Of a DNA stretch of 64,000 nucleotides, positions 33,425-47,757 are shown one piece after another. The stretch's first letter is position 1. The number at the start of each line of letters is the position of its first letter. A model generated the notes under the pieces. It made no database searches and was not told the DNA's origin. It saw only the letters and a program-made list of their open reading frames with translations. Location: assembly GCF_946892675.1 (NCBI RefSeq), contig NZ_CAMPOV010000001.1:1338033-1402032 (forward strand). Reading direction: 5' to 3'. This DNA is from Arthrobacter sp. Marseille-P9274 (GTDB lineage: Bacteria > Actinomycetota > Actinomycetes > Actinomycetales > Micrococcaceae). Position numbers and translations under genes: made by a program.

Positions 33425-34240
33425 GTGACTACCTCGACCAACGGCAAGTTCGATCGCACGCCGCTGATTGCCGGCAACTGGAAGATGAATATGGACCATG
33501 TCCAGTCCATCACGTTGCTCCAGAAGCTCGCCTGGACGCTGAGCGACGCCCGGCACGACTTCAAGCGGGTCGAGGTGGCGGTCTTCCCGCCCTTCACCGA
33601 CCTGCGGAGCGTCCAGACCCTGGTCCGCGGCGACGACCTCGAGGTGGCCTACGGCGGCCAGGATCTCTCCGAGTTCGATTCGGGTGCCTACACCGGCGAC
33701 ATCTCCGGGCAGTTCCTTGCCCGCCTCGGCTGCAGCTACGTGCTGGTGGGCCACTCCGAACGCCGGACCGTCCACGGGGAGTCCGACGAGACCCTCAACG
33801 CCAAGGTCAGGGCCGCCTTCCGGCATTCCCTGGTCCCGGTCCTCTGCGTCGGGGAGGGGCTGGCCGTGCGGCAGGCCGGGAACCACGTGGCACACACTCT
33901 CGAGCAGTTGCGTGCCGACCTCGCGGGACTGCCGGCCGAGGACGCGGCCCGGCTCGTGGTCGCCTACGAGCCGGTCTGGGCGATCGGCACCGGCGAGGTC
34001 GCCGGCCCCTCGGACGCCCAGGAAATGTGCGCCGCCATCCGCGCCGAAATCGCAAGCCTGTACGACGACGCGGTGGCCGCGGGCGTACGGCTGCTTTACG
34101 GGGGATCGGTCAAGGCCGCGAACGCGGCGGCCATCCTCAAGGAGCGCGAAGTCGACGGCGTACTGGTCGGCGGCGCCAGCCTCGACGTTGCCGAATTTGC
34201 TAACATTGTCAGGTTCGAGCACCATCTGGTGACGGACTAA
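33425..34240 (+). CDS. tpiA: Triosephosphate isomerase
   Basis: 271-residue TIM barrel interconverting dihydroxyacetone phosphate and glyceraldehyde 3-phosphate. Catalytic Lys in GNWKMN, His in GHSERR and Glu in [11 protein letters not shown] are intact, as is the phosphate loop [14 protein letters not shown] start with GGAGAG just upstream. secG follows after 15 bases. Confidence 0.97.
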
Positions 34241-34255
34241 TCGGGAAAGGCCACT

Positions 34256-34507
34256 GTGGACGCTCTGAAGATCACGCTGCAAATCGTGCTGGGAATCACC
34301 AGTCTCCTCCTGACGCTGCTGATTCTGCTGCACAAGGGTCGCGGCGGCGGTATGTCGGACATGTTCGGCGGCGGAATGACGACGTCACTGGGTTCTTCCG
34401 GTGTGGCCGAGCGGAACCTGAACAGGTTCACCGTGGTGCTCGGCCTGGTGTGGGGCACGGTCATCGTCGCCCTCGGGCTGATTATGCGCTTCAGCGCCGA
34501 AGCATAA
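34256..34507 (+). CDS. secG: Preprotein translocase subunit SecG
   Basis: 83-residue SecYEG accessory subunit with two transmembrane helices (about 5-27 and 55-77) separated by a Gly/Met-rich loop (GRGGGMSDMFGGG) typical of SecG. GTG start with GGGAAAGG upstream. The tpiA-secG linkage is standard in actinobacteria. Confidence 0.92.
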   Translation: MDALKITLQIVLGITSLLLTLLILLHKGRGGGMSDMFGGGMTTSLGSSGVAERNLNRFTVVLGLVWGTVIVALGLIMRFSAEA

Positions 34508-34595
34508 GGAATTCTTAGTCCCGTTCACTCCGGGCCGGTCGTAGACTTGTGCCACAGATCGCAGTACGACACCCTGCTACCCGGAGATGAACATC

Positions 34596-34967
34596 ATGGA
34601 ATCTTCCTACGGGCTCAGAGCCGTGCGCGCCGGTTCGGCTACAGGCGCCGGCCTGGCAGGTTGGCAGGCCGACACCGGTCGTATCGTCGAAATGGTCCGC
34701 AAGGTTCCGGTGACGTACTGGTGTCCGCAGGGTCATGAGACGACGCCGGTCTTCGCGGAGCTGGCCGAGATGGAGATCCCCAAGACGTGGGACTGCCCGC
34801 GCTGCGGACGAACCGCCTGCCGCGAACGCGGCGGCGCCAACGCGGAGCGGCCGGGGGATGAGCCGTTCAAGAGCCACTTGGAATACGCGAAGGAGCGGCG
34901 CACCCCGGAGGAAGCCGAGCGCGTCCTGCAGGACGCCCTTGACCGGCTGCGGCGGCGGCGGTCCTAG
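34596..34967 (+). CDS. rbpA: RNA polymerase-binding protein RbpA
   Basis: 123-residue actinobacterial RbpA, which binds RNA polymerase and sigma-A and stabilises open complexes. The zinc-ribbon core has CPQGH (about 42-46) and CPRC (about 67-70). A basic linker and the sigma-interacting C-terminal helix (SHLEYAKERRTPEEAERVL) follow. I prefer ATG 34596, 9 bases after GGAG; ATG 34587 abuts the Shine-Dalgarno too closely. The N-terminal tail differs from the usual R-x-x-R-G start and may mark a paralogue. Confidence 0.85.
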   Translation: MESSYGLRAVRAGSATGAGLAGWQADTGRIVEMVRKVPVTYWCPQGHETTPVFAELAEMEIPKTWDCPRCGRTACRERGGANAERPGDEPFKSHLEYAKERRTPEEAERVLQDALDRLRRRRS

Positions 34968-34984
34968 TGCGAGAACCCGGTGCA

Positions 34985-35096
34985 CCTTCAGCCATTTTGC
35001 CGGTGTAGACGTCCACTGCCCTGAGCAGCGTAGGGGTCCGTTGCGTTCGTAGTCGCAGGTCATCGTTTTATCCGGTCCTTCGGAATCCTGATTCAT
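34985..35096 (-). pseudogene. IS630-family transposase fragment
   Basis: On the minus strand the stretch encodes CDYERNG, then after a one-base shift TPTLLRAVDVYTGKMAEG. Together this matches the catalytic-domain segment of IS630-type transposases (D-Y-x-R-N/H-G-T..L..A.DV.TG). Both ends and the frame are lost, so it is a dead remnant. Assigned by eye from a short stretch. Confidence 0.5.
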
Positions 35097-35129
35097 CCGG
35101 CCCTACGCGGTGAGGCACCCTTTAATACC

Positions 35130-35645
35130 TCTTCGTGGACGTGCTGCCGGTCAAGCTGTTGAACTCCCGGGCGGCCATGAAAATCCCCGCCCGCAAGACC
35201 GATGTCTCCAATTAATGCCGTCCGGCCGGCGCAGCTGGGGCCCACGGTGTGTAGCGCGCCAGCTGTGTTCCTCCGAAGCCCATCCGGGAACTCCTTGTTA
35301 CCCGTGCCCGCACGATCGCGGTCCAGGACCGGACCCTCGGGATCCACCGGTTGGAGAAGTTCCTCGAATTCACCGGCATCTGGCTCTCCTCCGCGGTATC
35401 CGACCTCGTCGGGACATCGTTGTCGGCCACGCTCACCCCCGTCATCGACGGCAAACACGATCGCGCGCTGCTCGCTTAGCTGGCCAAAGGCACGTGGGCC
35501 GAAAAGTCACGGCACGGGCCCGAAGCCCTGGCCGGCCCGTTCATCGAACACCACCAGCCTGCCCGGGTGCACCTGGAACGGATCGATTCCATCACTTCCT
35601 GAACCGACTGGCTCAACCCGCAGGCGGGGAGCGGTTTCCGGCCTA
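35130..35645 (+). pseudogene. IS110-family transposase remnant
   Basis: Fragments of an IS110 (DEDD) transposase are read across frames and stops: MKIPARKTDV (near 35175), CVPPKPIRELLVTRARTIAV (near 35262-35322), then GIHRLEKFLEF, LSSAVSDLVGTS and, after an in-frame TAG at about 35477, LAKGTW...HLERIDSIT before a TGA near 35600. These match the NVPGRKTDV / PP.PIR.LR.LTR.R / IQRLEK.LED..IKLSSV segments of the family. It lacks the N-terminus and is not functional. Confidence 0.75.
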
Positions 35646-35824
35646 GCGTGCCGATAACGGCCCAATAACGGCGCGATAACGGGGCCGGGGGTGCACTGTA
35701 AAGGCATTACAAACTTGCAGCTTCATTGGGGTTCTTGGGGAGAAGAAGCGATGCTCACTGATCTGACCCGCCATTCCCTGGCGACCCTTGTGACCAAGCT
35801 CATGGCAGGAGAACGAGGGAGATC
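35646..35824 (+). promoter_or_regulatory. Upstream region of the NRPS-like operon
   Basis: This 179-base stretch must carry the promoter of the operon starting at 35825. It contains three ATAACGG copies within about 40 bases (from 35651) and a ribosome-site GGGGAG (35737-35742). I cannot place a convincing -35/-10 pair or an operator. Confidence 0.3.
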
Positions 35825-35912
35825 ATGCCGATTATTAACGATCCGCACCTGTTCAACGAGCAGAGCCTATTCGTCGACTTGGAAGGGGTGCTGGGCCGAC
35901 GGCTCTACCTGA
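35751..35912 (+). CDS. Possible small ORF overlapping the sbnA start
   Basis: ATG 35751 has a good Shine-Dalgarno (GGGGAG, 8 bases upstream) and encodes 53 residues beginning MLTDLTRHSLATLVTKL. It overlaps the first 88 bases of sbnA in another frame. It could be a leader peptide coupling translation to sbnA, or chance. No similarity recognised. Confidence 0.25.
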   Translation: MLTDLTRHSLATLVTKLMAGERGRSCRLLTIRTCSTSRAYSSTWKGCWADGST

Positions 35913-36889
35913 AGATCGAGGGATTCAACTTCGCCGGCTCGATTAAGCTCAAGCCCGCCAGGGAGATGGTCGAGCAGGCCGAGCGGACAGGCCTCGTCGG
36001 TCCCGGATCTGTGCTGGTCGAGTCCTCCTCGGGGAACCTCGGCGTCGCGCTCAGCATGATCGCTGCCAGCAAGGGGTATCACTTCGTATGCGTGATCGAT
36101 CCGCGCTGCAACCCCGCGACCGCGCAGCTCATGGAGGCGCTCGGGGCACAGGTGGACCTGGTCACCGAGCCGGATCCCGTCGACGGTTTCCTGGGGGCAC
36201 GACTCAACCACGTCCGTGAACTGTGCGCGTCGGACGACCGGTACGTCTGGCTCAACCAGTACTCGAACCCCGGCAACTGGGGAGCGCACTACCGCTGGAC
36301 CGCTCCCGAGATCGCCGCCCAGTTCCCGGACCTTGACGTGTTGTTCGTCGGAGCCGGAACAACGGGCACACTGATGGGTTGCGCACGGTACTTCCGGGAG
36401 CACCGCCCTGACGTCCGGATCGTCGCGGTCGACGCGGTAGGGTCGGTCTCGTTCGGCCGCCCGCCGGCCACCCGCCTGATCCCCGGGCTCGGGATGAGTG
36501 TGCGGCCGCCCCAACTCGACGAGTCCCTGATCGACGATGTGGTGTTCGTCGAGGAGGTGGACACGGTGCGCGCTTGCCACCGCCTCGCCGCGGGCGGGTA
36601 CCTGCTCGGGGGCTCCACCGGAACCGTGGTCCACGGCGCCATGACATGGCTTGAGGCCCACCAGGCCCGGGATATCACCGCGGTGACCATCTCTCCCGAT
36701 ATGGGCCGCCCGTACCTGGACACCATCTACCAGCCCGACTGGGTGCTGGACCACTTCGGGGCCGACGCTGCCGCCGACGCCGCCTCGACTGCAGACCCAG
36801 GTCTACAGTCTGACCCGATGTCGAGGCCACAACTCCCGGCAGCCGCCCCGCGGACTGATTCCGTGGCACTAAGGAGCATTTCGCAGTGA
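35825..36889 (+). CDS. sbnA: SbnA-like 2,3-diaminopropionate synthase subunit
   Basis: PLP enzyme (354 aa) of the cysteine-synthase fold. By homology to SbnA it condenses O-phospho-L-serine with L-glutamate to N-(1-amino-1-carboxy-2-ethyl)-glutamate, the precursor cleaved by SbnB to L-2,3-diaminopropionate. PLP Lys is K41 in AGSIKLKPA; the substrate loop SSSGNLG is at 67-73 and the PLP-phosphate loop is GAGTTGTLMG. The C-terminal 40 residues are Ala/Pro-rich and non-conserved. GAGGGAG lies just upstream. It overlaps the next gene by 4 bases (GTGA), so it opens the operon. Confidence 0.88.
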   Translation: MPIINDPHLFNEQSLFVDLEGVLGRRLYLKIEGFNFAGSIKLKPAREMVEQAERTGLVGPGSVLVESSSGNLGVALSMIAASKGYHFVCVIDPRCNPATAQLMEALGAQVDLVTEPDPVDGFLGARLNHVRELCASDDRYVWLNQYSNPGNWGAHYRWTAPEIAAQFPDLDVLFVGAGTTGTLMGCARYFREHRPDVRIVAVDAVGSVSFGRPPATRLIPGLGMSVRPPQLDESLIDDVVFVEEVDTVRACHRLAAGGYLLGGSTGTVVHGAMTWLEAHQARDITAVTISPDMGRPYLDTIYQPDWVLDHFGADAAADAASTADPGLQSDPMSRPQLPAAAPRTDSVALRSISQ

Positions 36890-39800
36890 ACGAGTTCGTC
36901 GAAACGCTGCCAACGTCACCAGGTACCACGATTCCGACAACTCCGACGACTTCCCAGAGGGTCGATTCTCCAGCCACTCCCGCCACCGGCGTAAACAGTG
37001 CGGACACGTCGTTGGAGCGTCGGCTGGCGGATCTTCTCGCATCGGTAGTGAAGAAGGACGACGTCGCCGTGGACGCCAACTTCTTCTACGAATTGGGTGC
37101 GGATTCGCTGGTGATGGCGCAGTTCTGCGCCCGGGTGCGCAAACAGCCGGACCTGCCTGCCGTGTCGATCAAGGACATCTACCAGCACCCGACGATCTCG
37201 GCGCTGGCCGCGGCCCTGGCACCGGCGGAAGAGGCGTCGGCGACGGCACAAGTGCAGGACCGGTTGGCTGAGGTGCTGGCAGGCGTGCTGGATGGCAAGC
37301 AGGTGGCGGTGGACAGCCACTTCTTCCAGGACCTGGGCGCGGATTCGCTGGTGATGGCCAAGTTTTGCGCCAGGGTGCGCAAGCAGCCGGATCTGCCGAA
37401 GGTCTCCATCAAGGACGTCTACCAGCACCCGACGATCGCGGCCCTGGCCGCGGCCCTGGCACCGGCGGAAGAGGCGCCGGCGACGGCACAGGTGAGGGAT
37501 CGCCTGGCCGAGGTGCTGGGCGGGGTGCTCGGCATCGATGACGTCCCGATGGACAGCGACTTCTTCCAGGAGCTTGGCGCGGACTCGCTGGTGATGGCCA
37601 AGTTTTGCGCCAGGGTGCGCAAGCAGCCGGATCTGCCCCAGGTGTCCATGAAGGAGATTTACCGCAACCCGAATATCTCCGCGCTGGCGGCGGCCCTGCA
37701 GGTTCCCCCGCAGCAGGACAAGGAGGCGGAGCCCTCGCCGGCGGTGGCGTCCGTGCCGGAGACGCCGCCGCCCATGGACGCGCGGACGTGGGAGTATGTC
37801 CTCTGCGGCGCCCTGCAGGTGCTTGTCTATTTCGGCTACTGCCTGCTCGCCGGGTTCATCGCGGTCGTGGGGTACCAGTGGTTGTTCCCGGCCGCCGGGC
37901 CGGGCAACCATCACTGGTTGAGCCACGGGACGGATTTCTGGGTGCTCTACCTGCGCTCGATCGGCTACGCCGCGGCAACGTTCGTGCTGCTGTGCATCCT
38001 GCCGGTGGCCGCCAAGTGGATTTTCATCGGGCGCTTCCGGCCCAAGGAGATCCGCATCTGGAGTCTGGCCTACTTCCGGTTCTGGCTGGTCAAGGCGCTG
38101 ATGCGCACCTCGCCCCTGTCGCTGATGACCGGTTCGCCGCTGACGACCTTCTACCTGAGGGCGATGGGCGCGAAGGTCGGCCGAAACGTGATGATCATGA
38201 CCAATCGGCTGCCGATCTGCACCGACCTCCTGACGATCGGGGAGGGAACGGTGATCCGCAAGGACGCCATGCTCAACGGGTACCGTGCCCATGGCGGCGT
38301 CATCCAGTTGGGTGGGGTCACGCTGGGCAAAGAAGTGATCATCGGCGAGGGCAGTGTCCTGGACATCGACACGTCGATGGGCGACCGCGCGCAGCTGGGC
38401 CACCGGTCCGCTCTCTACACCGGCCAAACCGTGCCCGCGGGCGAGCGGTGGCACGGCTCGCCCGGCCGGCCCGGAGGCGCGGACTACGCCACGGTTGAGC
38501 CGACTCCCTACCGGCCGTGGCGGCGCGGATGGTTCGCCGTTTCCCAGGTCCTGACCACGCTCGGGCTGGGCCGCACCATAATCGGACTGGCGATCACGCT
38601 GGTCGTCCTGGCGAACCCGAACGTCGCGGCCCTTCTGGAGTCACACGAGTGGGCGTTCGCCGAGTGGGTCTTCTACGCCGACGCCGTCGCCTACGCCGGC
38701 CTGAGCGTCTTCGGCGGAACGGTCATGGCGCTGGTCCTCATCACGACCCTGCCGCGGCTGCTCCAACTCGCGGTGAAGCCCGACACGGTGTATCCGCTGT
38801 TCGGGCTGCGGGACGCGGCGGCACGGGCGGTGGGCAAGATGACCAACAGCCCCATGCTCGGGGGGATATTTGGCGACAGCTCCTACGTGGTGAACTACGT
38901 GCGGGCCATCGGGTACCGCCAGCCGCAGGTCCAACAGACCGGTTCGAATTTCGGCACGGGGTTCAAGCACGACAACCCGTACCTGACGACCATCGGCACC
39001 GGCACGATGATCGCCGACGGGGTGTCATTCATGAACGCGGACTACTCGGCGACGTCGTTCAAGGTCAGCGGGGTGGCTCTCGGTGCCCACAACTTCCTGG
39101 GCAACGCCGTTCTGTACCCCGCCGAAGCCAGGACCGGGGACAACTGCCTGCTCGCGACCAAGGTGATGGTGCCCGTCGACGGGCCGGTGCGCCACGATGT
39201 CGGCCTGCTCGGGTCGCCGGCGTTCGAGATCCCCCGCTCCGTGCTGCGGGACGCCCTCCCCGAGGAGCACCGGAGCCCTGCCCACCGCCGCCGGGACCTG
39301 GCGGCCAAGAACCGGCACAACCTGCTCACGATGGCATTCCTGATGCTGGTGCGGTGGCTCAACGTGTCGCTGGCCATGCTGATTATGTTCGCCGCCCTCG
39401 AACTGTCCGACATGTTCGGCTTCCTTGCGCTCAGCGCGGGCTTCGTCGTGACGCTCGTGGTGGGCTCGCTGGTCCCCATCGGCATCGAGCGACTCACGAC
39501 GGGCTTCCGGCGGCTCAAGCCCCAACTCTGCTCGATCTACGACCCCTACTTCTGGTGGCACGAGCGGTACTGGAAGATGTCGCTGCAGCACCGGTACGCG
39601 ACAGTCTTCAACGGGACGCCGTTCAAGCCGCTGGTGTGGCGTCTGCTGGGCGTGCGGATGGGATCCCGGGTCTTCGACGACGGCTGCGGGATCATCGAGC
39701 GGACCCTGGTGACGATCGGCTCCCGCTGCACGCTGAACAACGGCACCACGATCCAGTCCCATTCCCAAGAGGACGGCATGTTCAAATCCGACTACAACGT

Positions 39801-40002
39801 CATCGGGGACGACGTCACGCTCGGCGTCGCCGCCTTTGTCCACTACGGCGTGACCATTGAAGACGGTGCCGTTGTCACCGCCGACTCCTTCGTGATGAAG
39901 GGGACGACCCTCACCCGGGGATCCCTGTGGGGTGGCAACCCGGCCGAAGAGGCCCGAGCCGCCGCCACGTCCCCCCTCGCACTGGAAAGGCCCGCATCAT
40001 GA
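36886..40002 (+). CDS. Triple carrier protein fused to Pls/PosA-type terminal membrane domain
   Basis: Proposed condensing/polymerising membrane subunit (1038 aa). Residues 1-41 are a Thr/Pro linker. Three carrier domains follow at about 42-110, 122-190 and 202-270, with phosphopantetheine serines S74, S154 and S234, each in LGADSLVM. Helices lie at about 305-333 and 358-383, beta-helix (hexapeptide-like) module 1 at 423-515, helices at 555-580 and 597-630, module 2 at 667-785, helices at 812-838 and 842-868, module 3 at 910-1025. This helix/module order is that of the C-terminal half of epsilon-poly-lysine synthetase (Pls/PosA family), where the three modules form peptide bonds iteratively. 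There is no adenylation domain. GTG start; AAGGAGC is 8 bases upstream. Confidence 0.85.
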   Translation: MNEFVETLPTSPGTTIPTTPTTSQRVDSPATPATGVNSADTSLERRLADLLASVVKKDDVAVDANFFYELGADSLVMAQFCARVRKQPDLPAVSIKDIYQHPTISALAAALAPAEEASATAQVQDRLAEVLAGVLDGKQVAVDSHFFQDLGADSLVMAKFCARVRKQPDLPKVSIKDVYQHPTIAALAAALAPAEEAPATAQVRDRLAEVLGGVLGIDDVPMDSDFFQELGADSLVMAKFCARVRKQPDLPQVSMKEIYRNPNISALAAALQVPPQQDKEAEPSPAVASVPETPPPMDARTWEYVLCGALQVLVYFGYCLLAGFIAVVGYQWLFPAAGPGNHHWLSHGTDFWVLYLRSIGYAAATFVLLCILPVAAKWIFIGRFRPKEIRIWSLAYFRFWLVKALMRTSPLSLMTGSPLTTFYLRAMGAKVGRNVMIMTNRLPICTDLLTIGEGTVIRKDAMLNGYRAHGGVIQLGGVTLGKEVIIGEGSVLDIDTSMGDRAQLGHRSALYTGQTVPAGERWHGSPGRPGGADYATVEPTPYRPWRRGWFAVSQVLTTLGLGRTIIGLAITLVVLANPNVAALLESHEWAFAEWVFYADAVAYAGLSVFGGTVMALVLITTLPRLLQLAVKPDTVYPLFGLRDAAARAVGKMTNSPMLGGIFGDSSYVVNYVRAIGYRQPQVQQTGSNFGTGFKHDNPYLTTIGTGTMIADGVSFMNADYSATSFKVSGVALGAHNFLGNAVLYPAEARTGDNCLLATKVMVPVDGPVRHDVGLLGSPAFEIPRSVLRDALPEEHRSPAHRRRDLAAKNRHNLLTMAFLMLVRWLNVSLAMLIMFAALELSDMFGFLALSAGFVVTLVVGSLVPIGIERLTTGFRRLKPQLCSIYDPYFWWHERYWKMSLQHRYATVFNGTPFKPLVWRLLGVRMGSRVFDDGCGIIERTLVTIGSRCTLNNGTTIQSHSQEDGMFKSDYNVIGDDVTLGVAAFVHYGVTIEDGAVVTADSFVMKGTTLTRGSLWGGNPAEEARAAATSPLALERPAS
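37009..37728 (+). repeat. Three tandem 240-bp carrier-domain repeats
   Basis: The three carrier domains repeat with an exact 240-bp period (Ser codons at 37105, 37345 and 37585). Around the second and third Ser codons about 55 bases are nearly identical (one synonymous difference, GAT/GAC), indicating recent duplication or gene conversion. Copy 1 is more diverged. Confidence 0.9.
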
Positions 40003-42617
40003 CCACCACCTCTGCGCTGACCTGCCGCACCGTCGCCGACCCCTCGTCGGGCCCGGGCAACGACCGGGCCGCCCCCGTGGGGGCCGCCCCGACGGCGATT
40101 CCCAGGTGGACGCAGGACCGCCGGCCGGGTCAGGGACGGGTCGAAGTTGCGGTTCCGGAGGACCTGCGCCAGGCCGTATGGACACTGTCCCGCACGCTGG
40201 ACGCGGCCCCTGCAGCGATCTGGCTGGCGGCCCACGCAAGGGTACTCCAGGCGCTGTCCGGCGAAACACAGGTCACGACCGGCTGCCGGGACGCATCGGG
40301 GACCTGGCCCTGCGAACTCGATTTGGGACTAGGGTCATGGCGGGCGCTGGTCTCCGCGGCCCGTATCCGGCAGGTACAGGCACACGCCGGTCGAGCCGAG
40401 GAACCACAGGCGGGGCGGACGCCGGTTTCCGCAGCGTACGAGGTGCTGCTCAGCACCGACCACGACGACGATCCCGAACTCCCGGAGGGCCTCGTCCTGG
40501 GCGTGTCCCTCCTCGACGCCGCAGGTGGCGAAGCGTTGCGCCTGCGCTACCGCCGCGACGTCCTCGACGAGGACGCAGCCGTCCGGATCGCCGGCTATCA
40601 CCTGAGCGCACTCCGCCATCTGGTCGCCGACCCCGATGCGGAGCCCGCCGATGCCGACCTCGTCGATCCCGACGAGCGGCGCCTGCAATTGGAACAGCTG
40701 GCCGGACCCGAGCGGCCCCGGCCCCAGCGGCGCTTCCACGAGCTGTTCGAGGAGCGAGTGCGGCAGCATCCCGAGCGTATCGCTGCCGTCCAGGCCTCAC
40801 GGCAGTGGACCTACGCGGAGCTGAACGCCCGTGCCAACCGGATCGCCCGTGCCCTGCTGGCCCACGGAGTACAGAGGGAGGACATTGTGGCGGTTGTCGC
40901 CGAGCGGGACCTCGAGTGGATGGCCGCAGTCATCGGCATCCTCAAGGCCGGAGGCGCGTACCTGCCGATCGAACCGCACTTTCCCTCCGAGCGGATCGCT
41001 AGAACGCTCACTCGGGCCGGATGCAGCACGGTACTGAGCGAGGAAGGCAGCACCACCACGCTCGACGAGGCACTCGAAGGGATGCCTGCAGTGACGAAGC
41101 TTCTGTTCGAGGACGTCGAGGCCGAGGGGCATGTCGCCGACGACCTCGGCATGGACGTGCGGCCAAACCAACTCGCCTACGTCTACTTCACCTCGGGCTC
41201 CACGGGCGAACCGAAGGGTGCGATGTGCGAGCACGAGGGGATGGTGAACCACCTGTACGCCAAGATCGAGGACCTCGGGATCGGCCCGGGTGACGTTGTC
41301 GCCCAGACCGCTCCCCAGTGTTTCGACATCTCGCTATGGCAGCTGGTCTCGGCCTTGCTCGTCGGCGGCCGCACACACATCGTCGGGCAGGACCGGATCC
41401 TCGACCTCGAGCGCTTCGTCGACACGATCGAACGGGGCGAAGTCGCGGTCTTCCAGGTCGTCCCGTCGTACCTGGATGCGGTGGTGGCTTACCTGGACGG
41501 CAAACCCCGCGCCCTGCCCAGCCTTCGGTGCGTCTCGGCGACCGGGGAGGCCCTGAAGCCGGAGCTAATCCGCCGCTGGTTCGCCGTGATGCCCGACGTC
41601 AAGCTAGTCAACGCCTATGGGCTGACGGAGACCTCGGACGACACGAACCACGAAGTGATGAGCTCCGCGCCCGCGGGTGACTACGTGCCGTTGGGGCCGC
41701 CGATCCCGAACGTCCGGATCCACATCCTCGACGAACGGCAGCGGCTCGTGCCACTCGGCGCACCGGGCGAGATCGCCTTCTCCGGGGTGTGCGTGGGCCG
41801 CGGCTACATCAACGACCCGGAGCGCACGGCACAGGCCTACTCCACCGACCCCTTCGTGGACGGCGCGCGGCTCTACCGGGCTGGCGACTATGGCCGCTGG
41901 TCACCGGACGGCAAGCTGGAGTACTTGGGCCGGCGGGACAACCAGGTCAAGATCTCAGGGTTCCGCATCGAGATCGGCGACATCGAGAACGCGCTGCTGC
42001 GGGTTCCCGGCGTCCGCGACGGCGCCGTGGTTGTCGGCGAGGGCGCCGGGCAGTCCAAGTTCCTGGTGGCGTTCTACTCCGGCAACCGGTCGCTCGACGT
42101 CGACGAAATCCGCAGCGAGATGGGCGCGCGGGTACCGGGCTACATGGTTCCGTCGACGTACAGGTGGCAGGAGAGCCTGCCCCTGACCGGCAACGGGAAG
42201 ATCGACCGAAAGGCCTTGACCCGCATGGCGCGGGAGATCGTTCCAGAGACCGGCACCGCCACGGAAGCCCTCTCGGCCACCGAGCAGCGGCTCGCCGAGG
42301 CATGGGCGACGGTGCTCGGCCTACCGGCGGGCCGGATCGGCGGGCAGGACTCGTTCTTTGAACTGGGCGGGACCTCGCTGTCCGCGGTGAAGCTCGCCGT
42401 CCTGCTCAAGCGCTCGGTGTCGATCAAGGACATCATGCAAACGCCAGTCCTGGCGGACCTGGCGACCCTGCTCGAGGCCTCGTCCCTGGCGGACGCTGCC
42501 GTTCCGGCCGCCCCGCGACCGGCGGGAGCCGCCGCGGAGCCCACCGCCATGGCCCCGGTAGGACAACCCCTTGACCACTCAAACCCGCAAATCGTGAAAC
42601 GAGAGGATCTCTCATGA
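39999..42617 (+). CDS. NRPS: half condensation domain, adenylation, carrier
   Basis: Amino-acid-activating subunit (872 aa). Residues about 45-225 match only the C-terminal lobe of a condensation domain; the HHxxxDG lobe is absent. The adenylation domain spans about 240-750, with A3 YFTSGSTGEPKG (396-407), A4 Asp D443 in FDISLWQ, A5 NAYGLTET (538-545), A7 YRAGDYG (D630) and A10 GNGKIDRK (K734). A carrier domain follows with S793 in LGGTSL. My by-eye specificity residues are D-I-W-Q-S-T-A-D; I do not match them to a known substrate, but the terminal acidic residue fits a basic side chain. GGAAAGG precedes ATG 39999, which overlaps the upstream stop (ATGA). Confidence 0.92.
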   Translation: MTTTSALTCRTVADPSSGPGNDRAAPVGAAPTAIPRWTQDRRPGQGRVEVAVPEDLRQAVWTLSRTLDAAPAAIWLAAHARVLQALSGETQVTTGCRDASGTWPCELDLGLGSWRALVSAARIRQVQAHAGRAEEPQAGRTPVSAAYEVLLSTDHDDDPELPEGLVLGVSLLDAAGGEALRLRYRRDVLDEDAAVRIAGYHLSALRHLVADPDAEPADADLVDPDERRLQLEQLAGPERPRPQRRFHELFEERVRQHPERIAAVQASRQWTYAELNARANRIARALLAHGVQREDIVAVVAERDLEWMAAVIGILKAGGAYLPIEPHFPSERIARTLTRAGCSTVLSEEGSTTTLDEALEGMPAVTKLLFEDVEAEGHVADDLGMDVRPNQLAYVYFTSGSTGEPKGAMCEHEGMVNHLYAKIEDLGIGPGDVVAQTAPQCFDISLWQLVSALLVGGRTHIVGQDRILDLERFVDTIERGEVAVFQVVPSYLDAVVAYLDGKPRALPSLRCVSATGEALKPELIRRWFAVMPDVKLVNAYGLTETSDDTNHEVMSSAPAGDYVPLGPPIPNVRIHILDERQRLVPLGAPGEIAFSGVCVGRGYINDPERTAQAYSTDPFVDGARLYRAGDYGRWSPDGKLEYLGRRDNQVKISGFRIEIGDIENALLRVPGVRDGAVVVGEGAGQSKFLVAFYSGNRSLDVDEIRSEMGARVPGYMVPSTYRWQESLPLTGNGKIDRKALTRMAREIVPETGTATEALSATEQRLAEAWATVLGLPAGRIGGQDSFFELGGTSLSAVKLAVLLKRSVSIKDIMQTPVLADLATLLEASSLADAAVPAAPRPAGAAAEPTAMAPVGQPLDHSNPQIVKREDLS

Positions 42618-43615
42618 CTTCGCCTGCACCCAGGACCCAGTTAGACGTGGAACGCCAAGCCGGCCGGCCACCGATGCTCACTGTCGAGAACGGAGACGAT
42701 TCCGCACGGTGGGCAGGACAGCACAGCGAGGCCCTGCGCATGGCGGTCGCCGAGCACGGCGCGGTCTTGGTCCGCGGGCTCGGCCTCCGCGATCCAGCCG
42801 AAGTAGCTGATGTCTACCGCCGGCTGGTCCCAAGCGGCCTCATGCCGGACCGGGAAGCCTTTGCCGCCAGGCAGCCCTATCTCGACGGCGTTTACTCGTC
42901 TCTGACATGGCCTGCGAACCAGCCCATGTGCATGCACCACGAAGTCAGCTACGCGCTCGAGTTCCCCGGTCTGATGCTCTTCGCTTGCCTCCAGGCGCCC
43001 AGCGCCGGCGGTGCGACCGGCGTGGCTGATGCCCGCGCAGTGCTGGACGCCCTGCCTGCGGAAATCGTCCAGCGGTTCGAAAGCGAGGGGTGGCTGCTAG
43101 CACGCAGCTACAACGAGGACATCGGGGCTACCTACGAGGAGGCGTTCGGGGTCGCCGACCGCGCCGCCGTCGAGGAATACTGCCGCGCCCACGCGATCGA
43201 GTTCGAGTGGCAGCCCGACGGAGAGCTCCGTACGCGGCAACGGCGCCCCGCCGTGGTGAGGCACCCAGTGACGGGCGAGCGCTGCTGGTTCAATCAGGTC
43301 GCGTTCTTGAACGAGTGGACGATCGCCCCCGAGGTGCGGGAGTACCTCGTGGACGTCTACGGTCCCGACGGACTGCCGTTCAACACGCGCTTCGGCAACG
43401 GCGAGCCGATCGGCGAGGACATCGTCGCCCTCTTGAACGAGGTCTACGAGGAACACACCCTCCGGACCCCTTGGGAAACCGGGGACCTCATGCTGGTCGA
43501 CAATATCCGCATGGCCCACAGCCGGGAGGCCTACGAGGGGCCTCGGGAGGTACTGGTCGGCATGGCCGAGCCGCGCAATGTATTTGATCTCGTTACCCAG
43601 GACGGTGCCCGATGA
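42614..43615 (+). CDS. SyrP-like Fe(II)/2-oxoglutarate dioxygenase
   Basis: TauD/TfdA-fold oxygenase (333 aa). The facial triad is H108-x-E110 (in MHHEVSYALEFP) with distal H302 (MAHSRE); R311 in GPREVLVG should bind 2-oxoglutarate. The MHHE-SYALE-P segment resembles SyrP-type enzymes, which hydroxylate amino acids held on carrier proteins. In this operon, beta-hydroxylation of the carrier-bound monomer is the natural inference. It overlaps both neighbours by 4 bases (ATGA). Confidence 0.88.
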   Translation: MTSPAPRTQLDVERQAGRPPMLTVENGDDSARWAGQHSEALRMAVAEHGAVLVRGLGLRDPAEVADVYRRLVPSGLMPDREAFAARQPYLDGVYSSLTWPANQPMCMHHEVSYALEFPGLMLFACLQAPSAGGATGVADARAVLDALPAEIVQRFESEGWLLARSYNEDIGATYEEAFGVADRAAVEEYCRAHAIEFEWQPDGELRTRQRRPAVVRHPVTGERCWFNQVAFLNEWTIAPEVREYLVDVYGPDGLPFNTRFGNGEPIGEDIVALLNEVYEEHTLRTPWETGDLMLVDNIRMAHSREAYEGPREVLVGMAEPRNVFDLVTQDGAR

Positions 43616-44685
43616 CTGACTACGCCAATTCCCCAGCCGCTGCCGCGTTGGAGCCGAAGACGGTTCCACCGTTCGCGGTCATTCCCGGATCCCAGGTGCA
43701 GGAGGTGCTCAGCGGCCGGGAGAAGCAGGTCGTCGAGCTGGTCGAGCAGACCTACCGGACGCACGCGGCCGGCGACTCGGTGAACCCCCCGTCCTACTTC
43801 CTGCGCTTCCCGGACCGGCCCTCATCGCGCATCATCGCGCTGCCCGCCTCGGTCGGAGGGGACGTAGGGGTCGACGGCATCAAGTGGGTCTCCAGCTTCC
43901 CGGACAACGTGGCGTCGGGGATACCCCGCGCCTCTGCCGTGCTGATACTCAACGACCGGGCGACTGGGTACCCCTTCGCCTGCATGGAGAGCTCCATCAT
44001 CAGCGCCTCCAGGACGGCGGCGTCGGCCGCCGCTGCCGCGGACTGGCTCAGCCGAGGACGGGGACGGGGACGCCCACGGCGCATCGGCTTCTTCGGCGTG
44101 GGCCTCATCGCCCGGTACATCCACACCTTCCTCGCCGAGACCGGTTGGTCCTTTGACGAGATCGGCGTGCACGACCTCTCGAGCGAGAGCGCGGAGGGGT
44201 TCAAGGGCTACCTCGAGCGCAGCGGCACCGCAGCCCGCGTGACCGTACATGGTAGCCCCGAACAGCTGATTCGGAGCAGCGACCTTGTCGTGTTCGCCAC
44301 CATCGCGGGCCAGCCGCACGTACACGACGTGGCGTGGTTCGAGCACAACCCGTTGGTGCTGCACGTGTCCCTGCGCGACCTCGCCCCGGAGATCCTGATG
44401 GCGTCGACCAACATTCTGGACGACGTCGACCACTGCCTGAAGGCCGGAACATCTGCCCACCTCGTGGAGCAGATGGTCGGTCACCGGGACTTCGTGGACG
44501 GCACCCTGGCCGATGTCATGGCCGGCAGGGTCTCGCTGGCGGACGACCGTCCGGTGGTGTTCTCGCCGTTCGGCCTGGGCGTGCTCGATTTGGCCGTGGG
44601 TAAGTTCGTCTACGACGAACTCGCCAGCCACGGCCAGCTCCGGGTGGTCGACGACTTCTTTTCCGAACTGCGACGGTACGGATGA
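43612..44685 (+). CDS. sbnB: SbnB-like 2,3-diaminopropionate synthase subunit
   Basis: NAD-dependent member (357 aa) of the ornithine cyclodeaminase/mu-crystallin family. By homology to SbnB it oxidatively cleaves N-(1-amino-1-carboxy-2-ethyl)-glutamate to L-2,3-diaminopropionate and 2-oxoglutarate. The substrate segment KWVSSFPDN (about 91-99) and Rossmann motif IGFFGVGLIARYI (about 157-169) are visible. It works with SbnA at the start of the operon; the 2-oxoglutarate released could also feed the neighbouring dioxygenase. ATGA overlap upstream. Confidence 0.9.
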   Translation: MTDYANSPAAAALEPKTVPPFAVIPGSQVQEVLSGREKQVVELVEQTYRTHAAGDSVNPPSYFLRFPDRPSSRIIALPASVGGDVGVDGIKWVSSFPDNVASGIPRASAVLILNDRATGYPFACMESSIISASRTAASAAAAADWLSRGRGRGRPRRIGFFGVGLIARYIHTFLAETGWSFDEIGVHDLSSESAEGFKGYLERSGTAARVTVHGSPEQLIRSSDLVVFATIAGQPHVHDVAWFEHNPLVLHVSLRDLAPEILMASTNILDDVDHCLKAGTSAHLVEQMVGHRDFVDGTLADVMAGRVSLADDRPVVFSPFGLGVLDLAVGKFVYDELASHGQLRVVDDFFSELRRYG

Positions 44686-44734
44686 CCCGCACCCGACCAC
44701 GTTCATCGATTCGCACCCACCGAGGAGTGACATG

Positions 44735-45877
44735 ATGCTCTCGCTACCGCAGATGCTGGGGAATGTATCCAAGGCAAACGTCCAGTCTCCAGACGACTGG
44801 GCAGGGTCGGTCACCGACGTCCTGCGGGACGCCGCGATCTACCACCACGCCGGAAACGGCTTCTACCGCGCCCAGTGTGACGCGTTAGGAGTCGATCCCG
44901 CCGCGATCAATGACATCAACGACCTTCAAGACCTGCCACTGCTGCCGGTCGGCATGTTTAAGCGTCCCGACGCCCAGGTGCTGCTCACCTGCTCTCTGGC
45001 CGACGTCGAGACCGAGACCAGCTCCAGCGGTACCCGAGGTGTCCCGTCCGTCGCCCGCCGCAACAGCGAGACAGTGACCCGGGCGCTGGTTGGACTGATC
45101 GGGACCTACCGCGAGTTCTTCAGCCTGTCCGGGGGCGCGGGACTTTTCTTGAACCCGTCGGACTCCGAAGCCTCGGAGATGGGTCTGCTCAAGGACCTCA
45201 ACATCCTCAACAGCGTCTTCGACCATCACGCATACCTCGTTGCCGACCGGGCGTTCGATGCCAGGGCGGCTCTGGAGCACCTGAGCCGGTGGAGGGGCCA
45301 CATGACCCGGCACATCGTCGGTCCGCCGTTCCTCATCAACCGGCTCTTCCGGTTCCTCGAGCAGGAGAAGATCAATGTGCGCTTGGACCCGTACAGCATG
45401 ATCATCACTCTCGGCGGTTGGAAGAAGCACACGGCCGAGGCCATCCCTGCTGAAGGCTTCCGGGAGCGCTGCCACGACCTGCTCGGCGTGCGCCCGGGGA
45501 ACGTGCGCGACATGTACGGGATGATCGAGTCGAACATGCTCGCGGTCGAATGCCACCTGCATCGCATGCACGTCCCGCCGTGGTGCTACATCTCCATCCG
45601 AGACCCTGGACAGACCGGCAAGGAGCTCGCTCCGGGGGACACCGGCACCATTGCCATAATGGACGCGCTCAGCACCAGCTATCCCGGTTTCCTCCTCACC
45701 GACGACGTGGGCGACGTCGAGACCGGCACCTGCGGGTGCGGGAGGACCGGCCAGGTCATCAACTTCCGCCGTCGGGGGCAGGGCGGCGGGCTTGGCCACT
45801 GCCCCGTCAGCATCGAGCGCTACCTCGCCGCGGGCACCACCGCCATCGATGAGGCGCCGGCTCTCGTGAAGGCCTGA
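44735..45877 (+). CDS. LuxE-family acyl-protein synthetase
   Basis: 380-residue ATP-dependent acyl-protein synthetase related to LuxE and distantly to PaaK/AMP-forming ligases. The nucleotide loop ETSSSGTRGVPS (about 90-101) and the later YGMIESN, typical of an AMP-forming core, are visible, as is a C-terminal Cys cluster (GTCGCGRTG). LuxE enzymes activate a carboxylate and pass it to a protein thiol. Here it may load or transfer an acyl or aminoacyl group to one of the four carriers. AGGAG lies 7 bases before ATG 44735 (ATG 44732 also possible). It begins 49 bases after sbnB and ends the operon. Confidence 0.8.
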   Translation: MLSLPQMLGNVSKANVQSPDDWAGSVTDVLRDAAIYHHAGNGFYRAQCDALGVDPAAINDINDLQDLPLLPVGMFKRPDAQVLLTCSLADVETETSSSGTRGVPSVARRNSETVTRALVGLIGTYREFFSLSGGAGLFLNPSDSEASEMGLLKDLNILNSVFDHHAYLVADRAFDARAALEHLSRWRGHMTRHIVGPPFLINRLFRFLEQEKINVRLDPYSMIITLGGWKKHTAEAIPAEGFRERCHDLLGVRPGNVRDMYGMIESNMLAVECHLHRMHVPPWCYISIRDPGQTGKELAPGDTGTIAIMDALSTSYPGFLLTDDVGDVETGTCGCGRTGQVINFRRRGQGGGLGHCPVSIERYLAAGTTAIDEAPALVKA

Positions 45878-45961
45878 GTTCGCGGCGCCTCAGCCACCGC
45901 CCGACCCGGTTGCCATGGCCCTGGCGAGGCCGGCGGGCAGGATATCGCGGGAACGCCCGTT

Positions 45962-45993
45962 CGACGGCGCCCGACCCATCGGGCGCCGTCGAG
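45962..45993. terminator. Bidirectional terminator at the end of the NRPS-like operon
   Basis: Perfect 14-bp arms TCGACGGCGCCCGA / complement with a CCCA loop, between the convergent LuxE-like gene and pgl. It can serve both strands; no long U-tract on either side. Confidence 0.65.
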
Positions 45994-46001
45994 CGGCCGC
46001 G

Positions 46002-46032
46002 GCGCAGGGGCACTAGGGCGCAGGGGCACTAG
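46002..46032. repeat. Two-copy 16-bp tandem repeat at the pgl stop
   Basis: GCGCAGGGGCACTAG occurs twice in tandem (46002-46016 and 46018-46032). The second copy includes the pgl stop codon (complement of CTA). A small local duplication. Confidence 0.8.
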
Positions 46033-46826
46033 TAGGTATCGCCCGCTGCGCGCAGGGCGTCCGGCAGCCGGGACGCCGCAGCCTGGTCGACCAGCCAGAG
46101 TGTTGCCTGCCGGCCGCGGGCTCCCGTCGCGGGGACCTGCACGTCGTTGGCACCCGACAGCGCCAGCCCTGCGGCGCAGGCCTTGTCCTCGCCGCCCACC
46201 ACGATCCAGACCTCCTCGGCGGAGTTGATCACGGGCAGGGTGAGGCTTACCCGCTGCGGCGGAGGCTTGGGGGAGTCCTCGACGCCAATGGCGGCACGCT
46301 CCAGCTCCCGGATCCCGGCCATGTCGGGAAAGAGCGAAGCGATGTGCCCGTCCGGACCCATTCCCAGCAACAGCACGTCAAAACGCGGCAGCGGAAGGCC
46401 GTCCCCGCCGTCGTTGGCGTCCCGGCCCGAGGCCCGGCGCAGTTCTTCGGCGTAAGCGTCCGCCGCTTCGTGCGGGCTCCCGAAGTCATCCGTGGAACCG
46501 AACGCGTGCACGCGTTCCTCGGCGATGTCCAGCGAGTCGAGGAGGGCCTGCCGGGCCTGCAGCTCGTTACGGTCCGGGCTGTCCTTAGCCACGAAACGTT
46601 CGTCGCCCCACCAGAAGTCCACCCGCCGCCAGTCCACGTCAACGCGCGAAGCATCGGCGGCGACCGCCCGCAAGGTGTTGATGCCCAGCGAGCCGCCGGT
46701 CAGGACGACCGAGGCGTCGCCATGGTGCTTCTGGGCCAGGGCAAGGCGCGCAATCAGCCGCCGCGCCGCTGCCGCGGCCAGGATCTCGGTGTCAGGGTGG
46801 ATGTGCAGGACCGGTTCAGCGTTCAC
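46029..46826 (-). CDS. pgl: 6-phosphogluconolactonase
   Basis: 265-residue DevB-type lactonase hydrolysing 6-phosphogluconolactone in the oxidative pentose phosphate pathway. It has the SIS-like fold segments LTGGSLGINTLRA, WWGDERFV, LLLGMGPDGHIASLFPD and PVINSAEEVWIVV. The start overlaps opcA by 11 bases; it is last in the six-gene operon. Confidence 0.95.
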   Translation of the reverse strand: MNAEPVLHIHPDTEILAAAAARRLIARLALAQKHHGDASVVLTGGSLGINTLRAVAADASRVDVDWRRVDFWWGDERFVAKDSPDRNELQARQALLDSLDIAEERVHAFGSTDDFGSPHEAADAYAEELRRASGRDANDGGDGLPLPRFDVLLLGMGPDGHIASLFPDMAGIRELERAAIGVEDSPKPPPQRVSLTLPVINSAEEVWIVVGGEDKACAAGLALSGANDVQVPATGARGRQATLWLVDQAAASRLPDALRAAGDTY

Positions 46827-47757
46827 TGCGGCGTACGCTCCTTAGGTTGGTGCGGGGCAATCCTTCGGTCAGTACTTCGCCGAAGACTTCGTCCGGGTCG
46901 AGGCGGCGAAGCTCTTCGGCCAGGCACTCCTCGATGGAGCGCCGCGGAAGGGTGATGCGCTGGACCGGCTGGTTCGGCTGGATCAGTTCGGCCACGCTCA
47001 AGCCCGGCCGCAGGATCCGGATGTCGCCGTCGACCCGGGTGATCCGGACGCCGCGGATCCCGATGCCCGCGGCCTCTTCGACGATGGTGACCGGAGCATC
47101 GAGCGCCCGTGTGAGCCAGGCCGCCAGCAGGACGGTGCTGGGGGAGTCGGAGGCGCCCTCGACGGCGACGGAGGTCACGGGGGAGTATTCGACCTGGTCG
47201 AGCACGGCGGCCAGCTGGATGCGCCAGTTGGTCAGCCGCGTCCAGGCCAGGTCAGTGTCTCCCGCCGCGTAGGTCCGGCGCAGCTGTTCGAGCGCAAGCT
47301 TTGGCTTCGGCTCGTGGGCGGAGTCGGTGATCCGCCGGTGCGCGATGCGGCCGATCGAGGTCGCCGAGGCGTTCTCCGGCATGCCGTGCGGCCACCAGGC
47401 CACGATCGGCGCGTCCGGCAGCAGCAGGGCGGACACCAGGGAGTCGCTTTCGCCCGCGAGTTCGCCGTAGCCGTAGAGCACCACGACCTCGGAGGCGCCA
47501 GCGTCCCCGCCGACGCGGATCTGCGCGTCAAGCTTCGTCGGTTCATCCGCGCCCGCGTCCACGAGCACGATGATGCGGCAGGGATGCTCGCGGCTGGCGG
47601 TGTTGGCGGCGTGAATCGCCACTTCCTCGTTGCCGGCCGTGGTGAGGACGACGAGCGTCAGCACCCGGCCCAGGGTGACCACGCCGCCCTGCTCGCGCAT
47701 CGAGACGATCTCCTTCGAGACCTTGGAGGTGGTGGTGTCCAGCAAATCGACTATCAA
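46816..47757 (-). CDS. opcA: Glucose-6-phosphate dehydrogenase assembly protein OpcA
   Basis: 313-residue OpcA, needed for assembly or activity of Zwf in cyanobacteria and actinobacteria. Recognised from the N-terminal MIVDLLDTTTSKVSKEIVSM, the WWPHGMPE segment and its fixed place between zwf and pgl. The ATG overlaps the zwf stop by 4 bases, consistent with coupled production of the partners. Confidence 0.95.
   Translation of the reverse strand: MIVDLLDTTTSKVSKEIVSMREQGGVVTLGRVLTLVVLTTAGNEEVAIHAANTASREHPCRIIVLVDAGADEPTKLDAQIRVGGDAGASEVVVLYGYGELAGESDSLVSALLLPDAPIVAWWPHGMPENASATSIGRIAHRRITDSAHEPKPKLALEQLRRTYAAGDTDLAWTRLTNWRIQLAAVLDQVEYSPVTSVAVEGASDSPSTVLLAAWLTRALDAPVTIVEEAAGIGIRGVRITRVDGDIRILRPGLSVAELIQPNQPVQRITLPRRSIEECLAEELRRLDPDEVFGEVLTEGLPRTNLRSVRRSER

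Follow-up and report, generated by a model that had tools for sequence, protein, structure and literature searches.

The window, a stretch of 64,000 nucleotides of forward-strand DNA from Arthrobacter sp. Marseille-P9274, holds six genes on its plus strand between positions 35825 and 45877, in the order SbnA, carrier-Pls, A-T, TauD, SbnB and LuxE-like (Table 1). An earlier note on this DNA had described six co-directional genes in this span, five of them with 4-base overlaps. The genes, their direction and the span stand, but the overlaps number four and join the first five genes only, LuxE lying 46 bp behind SbnB.

Table 1. Features of the locus, in coordinates of the window
Feature	Position	Strand	Details
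Three ATAACGG repeats, operator-like	35654..35682	+	Exact 11-bp phase; 171 to 149 bp before SbnA start
SbnA, PLP-dependent Dap biosynthesis enzyme	35825..36889	+	354 aa; TIGR03945, PDB match
A-less carrier-Pls: three carrier domains and Pls/PosA membrane tail	36886..40002	+	GTG start, 1038 aa; TIGR02353
Three tandem carrier domains	37021..37698	+	FxxxLGADSL motifs starting at residues 66, 146, 226
Pls tail: three repeats of membrane-helix pair and left-handed beta-helix	37801..39945	+	TIGR02353, structure model
A-T protein: predicted Dap-type adenylation domain and one carrier	39999..42617	+	872 aa; code DIWQSTADDK
TauD-type Fe(II)/2-oxoglutarate oxygenase	42614..43615	+	333 aa; HxE...H and Arg present
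SbnB, Dap biosynthesis dehydrogenase	43612..44685	+	357 aa; TIGR03944
LuxE-family acyl-activating enzyme, accessory	44732..45877	+	381 aa; Pfam LuxE
12-bp inverted repeat between LuxE and convergent next gene	45962..45991	.	No T-run; read from sequence

Genes and flanking elements

Both enzymes for the supply of diaminopropionic acid (Dap) scored above curated cut-offs, SbnA with 394 bits for TIGR03945 (cut-off 350) and SbnB with 417 bits for TIGR03944 (cut-off 327), and the best PDB match of SbnA, 5d87, is itself listed as SbnA. In Staphylococcus aureus SbnA and SbnB form L-Dap from O-phosphoserine and glutamate, 2-oxoglutarate being set free in the reaction. Their homologues in Streptomyces albulus are described, in the available part of the report, as forming Dap from serine and ornithine and not from O-phosphoserine and glutamate (PMC4668381).

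The tail of the carrier-Pls protein reached 663 bits for TIGR02353, 240 bits over the cut-off of 423, and was modelled with the Pls fold of three helix pairs and three left-handed beta-helices (pLDDT 81.3, pTM 0.84). The protein has no A domain, and the fused A-carrier-tail arrangement of the Pls and PosA synthetases is lacking. Three PP-binding stretches were counted in it by profile search, the limits of carrier domains 2 and 3 being placed from an 80-residue spacing; the triple carrier is thus real at this locus but is not a fixed trait, since relatives have 1 to 4 carriers.

Profile search of the A-T protein gave AMP-binding and PP-binding matches. Its approximately 240 N-terminal residues lack the HHxxxD motif that functional condensation domains have, and the same region of its relative in locus L035 gave a weak match, below cut-off, to part of the condensation model. 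The TauD-type protein carries HxE...H and the 2-oxoglutarate arginine, as does every full-length row aligned; its model (pLDDT 75, best fold match 1y0z) informs on the general fold only. It is 33% identical to DdaC, whose substrate is a carrier-bound Dap derivative, and by this analogy it may act on a thioester-bound amino acid.

The LuxE-like protein matched Pfam LuxE with 128.6 bits (cut-off 24.9) and the NCBIfam equivalog NF052244 with 140 bits, below the cut-off of 550. The earlier note had counted it as part of the set; among the loci compared it is confined to those of Micrococcaceae, and the conserved core consists of the five genes from SbnA to SbnB. This core was also found in loci of Geodermatophilaceae, Pseudonocardiaceae and a further family, f26, which was taken for Streptomycetaceae. 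Gene calls in the relatives' loci come from a short script trained on the window genes, so that their starts are rough.

Two or three exact copies of ATAACGG are present in 7 of the 12 operon leaders examined, three copies in 4 of them, and the phased arrangement did not appear in 100 shuffles. Allowing at most one mismatch, each of the 10 genomes from the genus has a pair at the expected place; the pair of G004 is on a different contig, followed there by SbnA. At one mismatch the pair also gave matches off the operon in 6 of the 10 genomes, besides the orphan site of the own genome, and the backward control matched in 3 genomes. The inverted repeat at the other end is possibly the operon end; a terminator scan made no call at it. 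An RNA element in the leader was set aside, the sole match in 34000-47000 being sub-threshold and located elsewhere.

Co-occurrence and origin of the proposed split

The earlier note had proposed that activation and polymerisation are divided between two proteins working in trans, and had suggested a search for co-occurrence of such a tail protein with SbnA/SbnB and a SyrP-like enzyme. In the family sample (n = 395) A-T was found in 19 genomes, and these 19, with no others, also hold an A-less carrier-Pls of at least 70% identity; they include G258, whose long open frame was checked and is A-less. The class sample (n = 394) contained 17 genomes with a Pls match, of which 15 were A-less by frame length, all 15 with A-T, and two had only a fused-length Pls, both without A-T. 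As the samples overlap by 2 genomes, A-less carrier-Pls occurs together with A-T in all 32 distinct genomes. In these searches each genome was scored by its two best candidates, and only Pls resembling the query were picked up; L065 and L066, whose Pls are fused, escaped them. Carrier-less, tail-only frames were seen in G273 and G136, both without A-T. No A-T match at E 1e-110 was found on plasmid sequences L009 to L014, and TauD and SbnB were not found near the Pls of L046; these findings were counted against the favoured reading. Lone carrier-Pls genes lie near metal genes on plasmids L009, L010 and L011, a possible hint at metal resistance that was set aside.

The A-less tails belong to one clade of 55 Pls tails (SH-aLRT 98), comprising 52 A-less and 3 A-degenerate members. 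A-intact Pls share 68 conserved columns, and 49 of these are retained by 50 or more of the 52 A-less tails. In the Pls of L012, L013 (both plasmid sequences) and L040 and in the extra Pls of L037 the A3 motifs are broken and the A10 lysine is absent, both being intact in the 11 other fused Pls aligned; in L040 the decayed gene adjoins an intact A-T gene. The sequences suggest that these four are decayed-A intermediates on the way to the split form. Orphan carrier-Pls copies also exist, one of them bearing the operon's leader, and suggest that one charging enzyme may serve two polymerases.

Without an A domain of its own, the carrier-Pls protein must be charged by something else. Co-occurrence, decayed-A intermediates and orphan copies together argue for loading in trans by A-T, and the proposed division is in this respect supported, as far as sequences can tell. 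The A-T protein keeps its own carrier, which was counted against a split Pls. Nor is it dedicated to Pls, because A-T, TauD, SbnA and SbnB occur with no Pls in the loci L110, L112 and L113. Such loci, together with those where A-T and TauD lie beside a second predicted Dap route (L067, L115), would fit two products drawn from one Dap pool: plain poly-Dap from carrier-Pls, and a separate oxidised Dap block or small molecule, maybe a cap, from A-T and TauD. We consider this unlikely, given the association of A-less carrier-Pls with A-T and the position of the TauD gene after the A-T gene in 20 complete loci.

All 10 genomes of the genus hold both A-T and carrier-Pls, which points to a constant function in the physiology of the cell more than to a metabolite made now and then. 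Such a distribution would also suit an envelope trait, in which the tail passes Dap to a wall polymer or lipid with no chaining, in the style of DltA-DltC-DltB; in the model the tail is a membrane protein and has folds of the left-handed-helix acyltransferase kind, and the A domain of A-T matches DltA models, below cut-off. The margin of the tail over the Pls/PosA model and its retention of most conserved residues speak against this, and the characterised Pls members, in the parts of the reports available, polymerise amino acids (PMC10522769, PMC4668381). Envelope modification is on balance improbable.

Substrate and oxidation

Read at what we take to be the A-domain code positions, the code of the A-T protein is DIWQSTADDK. 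It recurs in 27 of the 30 rows of split A-T proteins, three rows being cut off or broken, and in 20 of 20 further rows; it is identical in 47 complete sequences altogether, and no pair of the rows compared is 98% or more identical. SbnA or SbnB is present in the fetched stretch for 43 of these 47; 2 have another predicted Dap route, and the 2 with neither are L111 and the contig-truncated L026. The choice of Dap as predicted substrate is strengthened by the scores of SbnA and SbnB and by an invariant code found again next to a second predicted route. The code presumably resembles Dab codes; a text search of the literature for the strings DIWELT... and DIWQSTAD returned no paper. In the available part of the PosA work, Asp and Glu are given at code positions 1 and 3, the Glu being conserved in cationic homopolymer synthetases (PMC10522769). 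A-T has the Asp at position 1 and Trp, not Glu, at position 3, which was counted against a Pls-type Dap chain.

The alternative of a SyrP-like hydroxylase acting on aspartate was set aside as less probable, on account of the Dap genes in the operon and two acidic code residues at 8-9. An aminoacyl shuttle by the TE of Pseudonocardia A-T-TE proteins was also set aside, since all four that were read have Ser as nucleophile (GHSSG). The TE of L071 has a Cys nucleophile, with no Pls in its fetched stretch.

A hydroxyl group placed on the beta-carbon of Dap next to its free amine forms a hemiaminal, which is unstable. For this reason the hydroxy-Dap with a clean residue of 102, put forward in the earlier note, is doubtful on general chemical grounds.

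The likeness of TauD to DdaC also brings to mind a dapdiamide-like antibiotic, in which LuxE would acylate Dap, A-T load N-acyl-Dap, TauD epoxidise or hydroxylate it (cf. DdaG, DdaD and DdaC), and the tail condense the product with an amine. SbnA-like, SbnB, TauD and A-T genes do adjoin in the Pantoea dapdiamide cluster. LuxE as a DdaG-like acyl ligase was however rejected, the two matching in short pieces only (best E 0.003) and LuxE being missing outside Micrococcaceae loci. Furthermore tblastn at E 1e-5 brought up none of DdaE, the ATP-grasp ligase DdaF, the fumarate-Dap ligase DdaG, the amidotransferase DdaH and DdaI, either in the window or in the 20 complete loci, and the DdaD code, DS-DIGVINK, differs from that of A-T. 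We regard this antibiotic as very unlikely.

Proposed mechanism

We favour, with moderate confidence, a split Pls-type synthase for a Dap-based amide chain. SbnA and SbnB would supply L-Dap, which the A domain of A-T would adenylate and load onto its own carrier and, in trans, onto the carriers of carrier-Pls. TauD may oxidise thioester-bound Dap, as the DdaC precedent suggests, possibly with the 2-oxoglutarate released by SbnB. The membrane tail, modelled like that of PosA, would then couple Dap from the carriers to a free amine, either of another Dap or of a growing oligomer, so that an isopeptide oligomer or co-polymer results. LuxE would be an optional Micrococcaceae addition, perhaps for an acyl cap. 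More tentatively, and rather doubtfully, A-T might be a charging and oxidising station that loads Dap, presents it in bound form to a dedicated oxygenase and feeds plain and oxidised Dap in trans to at least two separate multi-carrier membrane polymerases of one cell. If this were true, a co-polymer with oxidised Dap (an N-acyl hemiaminal, dehydro or cross-linking aldehyde unit) would be a new kind of natural polymer.

A natural split with decaying-A intermediates would mean that the polymer chemistry is separable from the choice of substrate, and exchanging partners among A-T and carrier-Pls proteins would put the origin of new isopeptide polymers directly to the test. The system could also shed light on the role of several carriers for a membrane polymerase and on what Fe/2-oxoglutarate oxidation of carrier-bound Dap would yield.

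Comparison with known systems

In D-alanylation, DltA, DltC and DltB are a separate A protein, a carrier and a membrane acyltransferase; the layout in separate proteins is alike here, whereas the tail family and the amino acid differ. Sulfazecin shares Dap made in the cluster and loaded onto an NRPS, and a 2-oxoglutarate oxygenase that hydroxylates a Dap-derived residue; in the available parts of the reports it differs by a conventional NRPS with thioesterase, a beta-lactam product and oxidation after release (PMC6097109, PMC11298585). The Pantoea dda cluster (L116) likewise has adjoining SbnA-like, SbnB and A-T genes and a carrier-acting TauD-type oxygenase, but it has DdaE to DdaI, another A code and no Pls among the genes listed in the accessible part of the source (PMC12451424).

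Described Pls-type synthetases carry their own A domain, according to the portions of the reports available (PMC10522769, PMC4668381), and no description of a division of labour between A-T and carrier-Pls was found for the Pls family in the literature consulted. With the family of PosA and the epsilon-PL synthetase the present tail shares TIGR02353 and a similar model; it differs in that the tail protein is devoid of an A domain and the partner has Trp and not Glu at code position 3 (PMC10522769, available part). The closing comparison is with the poly(L-diaminopropionic acid) synthetase of S. albulus PD-1, which, as far as the available part of the report goes, likewise has a Pls-type tail, a carrier and Dap, here predicted, as monomer, with homologues of cysteine synthase and ornithine cyclodeaminase supplying the Dap; its A domain, carrier and tail are fused, however, and its Dap genes lie elsewhere (PMC4668381), whereas here the A domain is on a second protein, there are 1 to 4 carriers, and the oxygenase and Dap genes are in the operon.

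Gene organization of the cluster

The six genes that the earlier note had listed are real and complete, each being confirmed by family models, and the identity it had given to SbnA and SbnB held against the NCBI equivalog cut-offs (see table). The best solved relatives of the window SbnA are entries listed as SbnA, and that of SbnB is 4m54, an entry described as a putative ornithine cyclodeaminase. The 4-base overlaps claimed for the operon are found at four junctions, linking SbnA, carrier-Pls (carrier domains followed by a Pls/PosA membrane tail), A-T (adenylation and carrier protein), TauD and SbnB, but the LuxE-like gene follows only after 46 bp.

Features of the cluster in the window
Feature	Position	Strand	Evidence or remark
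ATAACGG repeats	35654-35682	+	three direct repeats in 11-bp phase, upstream of the operon
SbnA	35825-36889	+	passes NCBI equivalog cut-off
Carrier-Pls	36886-40002	+	TIGR02353, 663 bits (cut-off 423); three carrier stretches precede the tail
A-T	39999-42617	+	family models
TauD	42614-43615	+	family models
SbnB	43612-44685	+	passes NCBI equivalog cut-off
LuxE-like	44732-45877	+	family models

On one side the cluster is flanked by a putative glycolysis/rbpA run, and on the other by putative pgl-opcA-zwf-pgi genes. It lies at the same site in Arthrobacter mangrovi (locus L023), and the flanks differ in most other loci, so that the cluster seems to have been relocated between genomic sites. Upstream of the operon, positions 34968-35650 form a degenerate stretch with broken frames, one of them presumably transposase-like. 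The gap preceding SbnA is about 470 bp longer in the window than in L023.

Distribution of the five-gene system

Genome contigs were scanned with the carrier-Pls protein as query, resulting in 49 loci. All five genes from SbnA to SbnB were present in 20 of these (SbnA of L017 being cut by the contig end), and a further seven held part of the set and ended at a contig edge. The others were nine loci with fused A-carrier-Pls proteins, five orphans (carrier-Pls away from any such set), three partial or broken loci (L030, L046, L048) and five fragmentary or odd ones (L052, L057, L060, L062, L063). In a class-wide search the A-T protein matched in 21 of 394 genomes, at 24 places, 20 of which were fetched (left out were the window's own genome G000, G017 and the weakest match, in G566); 13 of the fetched places had the full five-gene set, one (L105) was cut by the contig end and six were without Pls.

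Carriers per protein numbered two to four in complete Micrococcaceae operons, one to three in Geodermatophilaceae and Pseudonocardiaceae loci, and one both in genomes taken as Streptomycetaceae and in all nine fused Pls whose A domain is intact. Judged from these locus and carrier counts, the conserved core is five genes and the triple carrier, present as described in the window protein but varying from one to four across loci, is a local form. LuxE is outside this core: among the loci examined it was confined to those of Micrococcaceae, and not all of these have it (L021 lacks it).

Several other genes were seen near the clusters. A phosphopantetheinyl transferase gene adjoins SbnB or SbnA in L034, L038, L039, L042, L106 and L108 (by Pfam in L042, by BLAST in the others). 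An M28 peptidase gene, which could serve in product cleavage, recurs near the Micrococcaceae clusters L016, L018, L022, L025, L030, L031 and L036 (Pfam for L031, BLAST grouping for the others), and an HGSNAT/DUF418-type membrane acyltransferase, perhaps for N-acetylation of the product, near Pls in L010, L022, L028, L033, L040, L066 and L107 (Pfam for L066 and L107, BLAST grouping for the others). On contig C1 of genome G258 (L128), carrier-Pls, A-T, TauD and SbnB stand in order, but gene calling gave no SbnA in the roughly 3.4 kb before them; a stop codon was flagged in its A-T by the sequence search.

Co-occurrence of A-less carrier-Pls and A-T

If a carrier-Pls protein without adenylation domain (A-less) is charged in trans by A-T, both genes are expected together. 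In the family sample (395 genomes) A-T was found in 19, and A-less carrier-Pls of at least 70% identity in exactly those 19; the open frame was at most 1204 aa in 18, and the 1406-aa frame of G258 contains an A-less gene. Another 18 family genomes had a Pls match, 17 with frames of at least 1371 aa, taken as fused, and G273 with a tail-only frame. In the class sample (394 genomes) Pls matched in 17; 15 were A-less by frame length, all with A-T, and the two of fused length (G415, G781) had none. The co-occurrence of A-less carrier-Pls with A-T was thus observed in 32 distinct genomes (G000 and G017 being common to both samples), counts in which same-clade genomes are not independent, the two best candidates per genome were scored, and Pls that differ from the query, L065 and L066 among them, go unseen.

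Since 6 of the 21 class genomes having A-T lack Pls, the dependence is one-way, of A-less Pls on A-T. Against the pairing stand two tail-only Pls, with neither carrier nor A domain, in G273 (C1, L124) and G136 (C4, L125), both genomes being without A-T. A search of the plasmids only of L009 to L014 found no A-T, which also speaks against it. Orphan L058 has a partial A-T in another part of its genome, where a contig ends. L009 looks like a decayed cluster, in which SbnA and A-T fragments remain. The carrier-Pls genes of L009, L010 and L011 stand alone on plasmids and have metal genes in their vicinity. In L110, L112 and L113 the fetched stretch has A-T, TauD, SbnA and SbnB but no Pls, and in L110 and L112 these genes lie next to NRPS-like ones.

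Pls tails and degenerate A domains

INTERMEDIATES. A tree was built from 68 tails by a quick method. One group (SH-aLRT 98) comprised 52 A-less and three A-degenerate tails and none of the 11 A-intact ones; outside it lay an archaeal tail labelled A-less (L052) and the degenerate upstream copy of L037. The A domain is recognisable but damaged in four Pls (L012, L013, L040 and the additional L037 copy), with the A3 motif altered and the A10 lysine missing, both of which are intact in all 11 other fused Pls. In L040 the damaged domain is fused to Pls and an intact A-T is the next gene. Such a pattern is what one would expect if a fused A domain had been lost once a trans partner was recruited.

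Among 68 columns conserved in at least 10 of the 11 A-intact tails, 49 are retained by no fewer than 50 of the 52 A-less tails. The model of the window tail (residues 285-1038) is confident (pLDDT 81.3, pTM 0.84) and has helix pairs and beta-helices in alternation, three of each, the same arrangement as predicted for the known Pls-type synthetase PosA (PMC10522769), and its best local structure matches are left-handed-helix acetyltransferases. Nothing observed in alignment or model suggests that the window tail would be dead.

In a Nitrosocosmicus archaeon MAG (L052, 8653-12412) a Pls tail has its A domain in a separate upstream frame, with code DFDGIGTVTK, which is either a second split or a frameshift. 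The window's own genome has two further fused Pls, L065 and L066, the latter with code DAESIGTVIK, which we take to be Lys-like.

Orphan copies and upstream repeats

The window's genome has a second carrier-Pls (L064), with a 76.7% identical tail, away from any A-T and beside a PPK2 gene; orphans also occur in other members of the genus. The window operonic tail is 87.3% identical to the A. mangrovi orphan (L015) and 72.9% to its operonic copy (L023), and the L064 tail is 82.1% identical to L023. By tail identity, operonic and orphan copies have swapped places between the two genomes, which suggests that the two polymerases are interchangeable.

Each of the 10 genomes in the genus has an ATAACGG pair, with at most one mismatch, at the matching place. 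In nine, the pair shares a contig with carrier-Pls and precedes it by 1.2 to 1.5 kb; in G004 it lies on another contig, directly before SbnA. The sole other site in the whole own genome lies just before the orphan (G000:C1:324483-324500; L064 9483-9500), whose leader is homologous to that of the operon (score 135, shuffle maximum 28); common descent is the simplest cause. No repeat was found before orphans L015, L024, L029 and L032, so the link between operon and orphan rests on one orphan. As a guess, the repeats are a putative site of a response-regulator-type protein.

Adenylation code and Dap supply

The ten-letter A-domain code was read at what are taken to be the usual positions. Of the 30 split A-T rows, 27 have DIWQSTADDK and three are cut or broken; the 20 A-T proteins from the class search all have it too. 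Across both sets, no two A-T rows were near-copies at 98%. SbnA or SbnB lay in the fetched stretch for 43 of 47 A-T with this code; among the remaining four, L114 and L115 have a probable other route to diaminopropionate (Dap), and L026 (cut) and L111 neither. The code also occurs in an A-T protein with a TE domain on a Streptomyces plasmid (L071), and a Kitasatospora protein has DIWQATCDDK. No SbnB match was found in the L067, L071, L114 and L115 stretches, which carry an SbnA-like enzyme, a Lyase_1-kind lyase and a kinase (Pfam for the L067 and L071 lyases and the L067 kinase), a probable second Dap route via aspartate with fumarate release; an ATP-grasp gene is also present in this predicted route.

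DdaD of the dapdiamide cluster, which loads acylated Dap, has a different code. According to PMC10522769, known cationic homopolymer synthetases conserve Asp at code position 1 and Glu at position 3, whereas the A-T code has Trp at 3 and acidic residues at 8 and 9; its A domain is thus of another lineage. In S. albulus, SbnA/SbnB homologues make Dap from serine and ornithine rather than O-phosphoserine and glutamate (PMC4668381), so that the window enzymes may use either pair of donors.

The TauD-type oxygenase

Every full-length TauD row aligned has the HxE...H iron triad together with the arginine, and the window protein is 33% identical over 276 residues to DdaC, which epoxidises acylated Dap on a carrier (PMC12451424). 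In sulfazecin a 2OG enzyme hydroxylates a Dap-derived residue after release (PMC6097109, PMC11298585). Even in loci that lack Pls (L067, L110 to L113) the TauD gene adjoins A-T, which points to carrier-bound Dap as the putative substrate. A hydroxyl on the beta carbon beside a free amine would lose ammonia, making stable free hydroxy-Dap unlikely. A stable product of the optional beta-hydroxylation in the earlier note is doubtful on these chemical grounds; the oxidised unit may be an N-acylated hemiaminal, a dehydro unit or an aldehyde. SbnB, if working as in S. aureus, would release the 2-oxoglutarate that a TauD-type enzyme needs.

Comparison with known systems

The cluster is a real Pls-family variant, conserved and well supported, in which activation has passed to a second protein and an oxygenase has joined the set. 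The earlier note named no described cluster with exactly these genes, and a literature search over titles and abstract starts, with few subscription papers, found no description of a split Pls system. A comb-like Dap polymer is reported from a Streptomyces (Takehara 2021, as cited in PMC10522769), and a split Pls system is, speculatively, a candidate for its maker.
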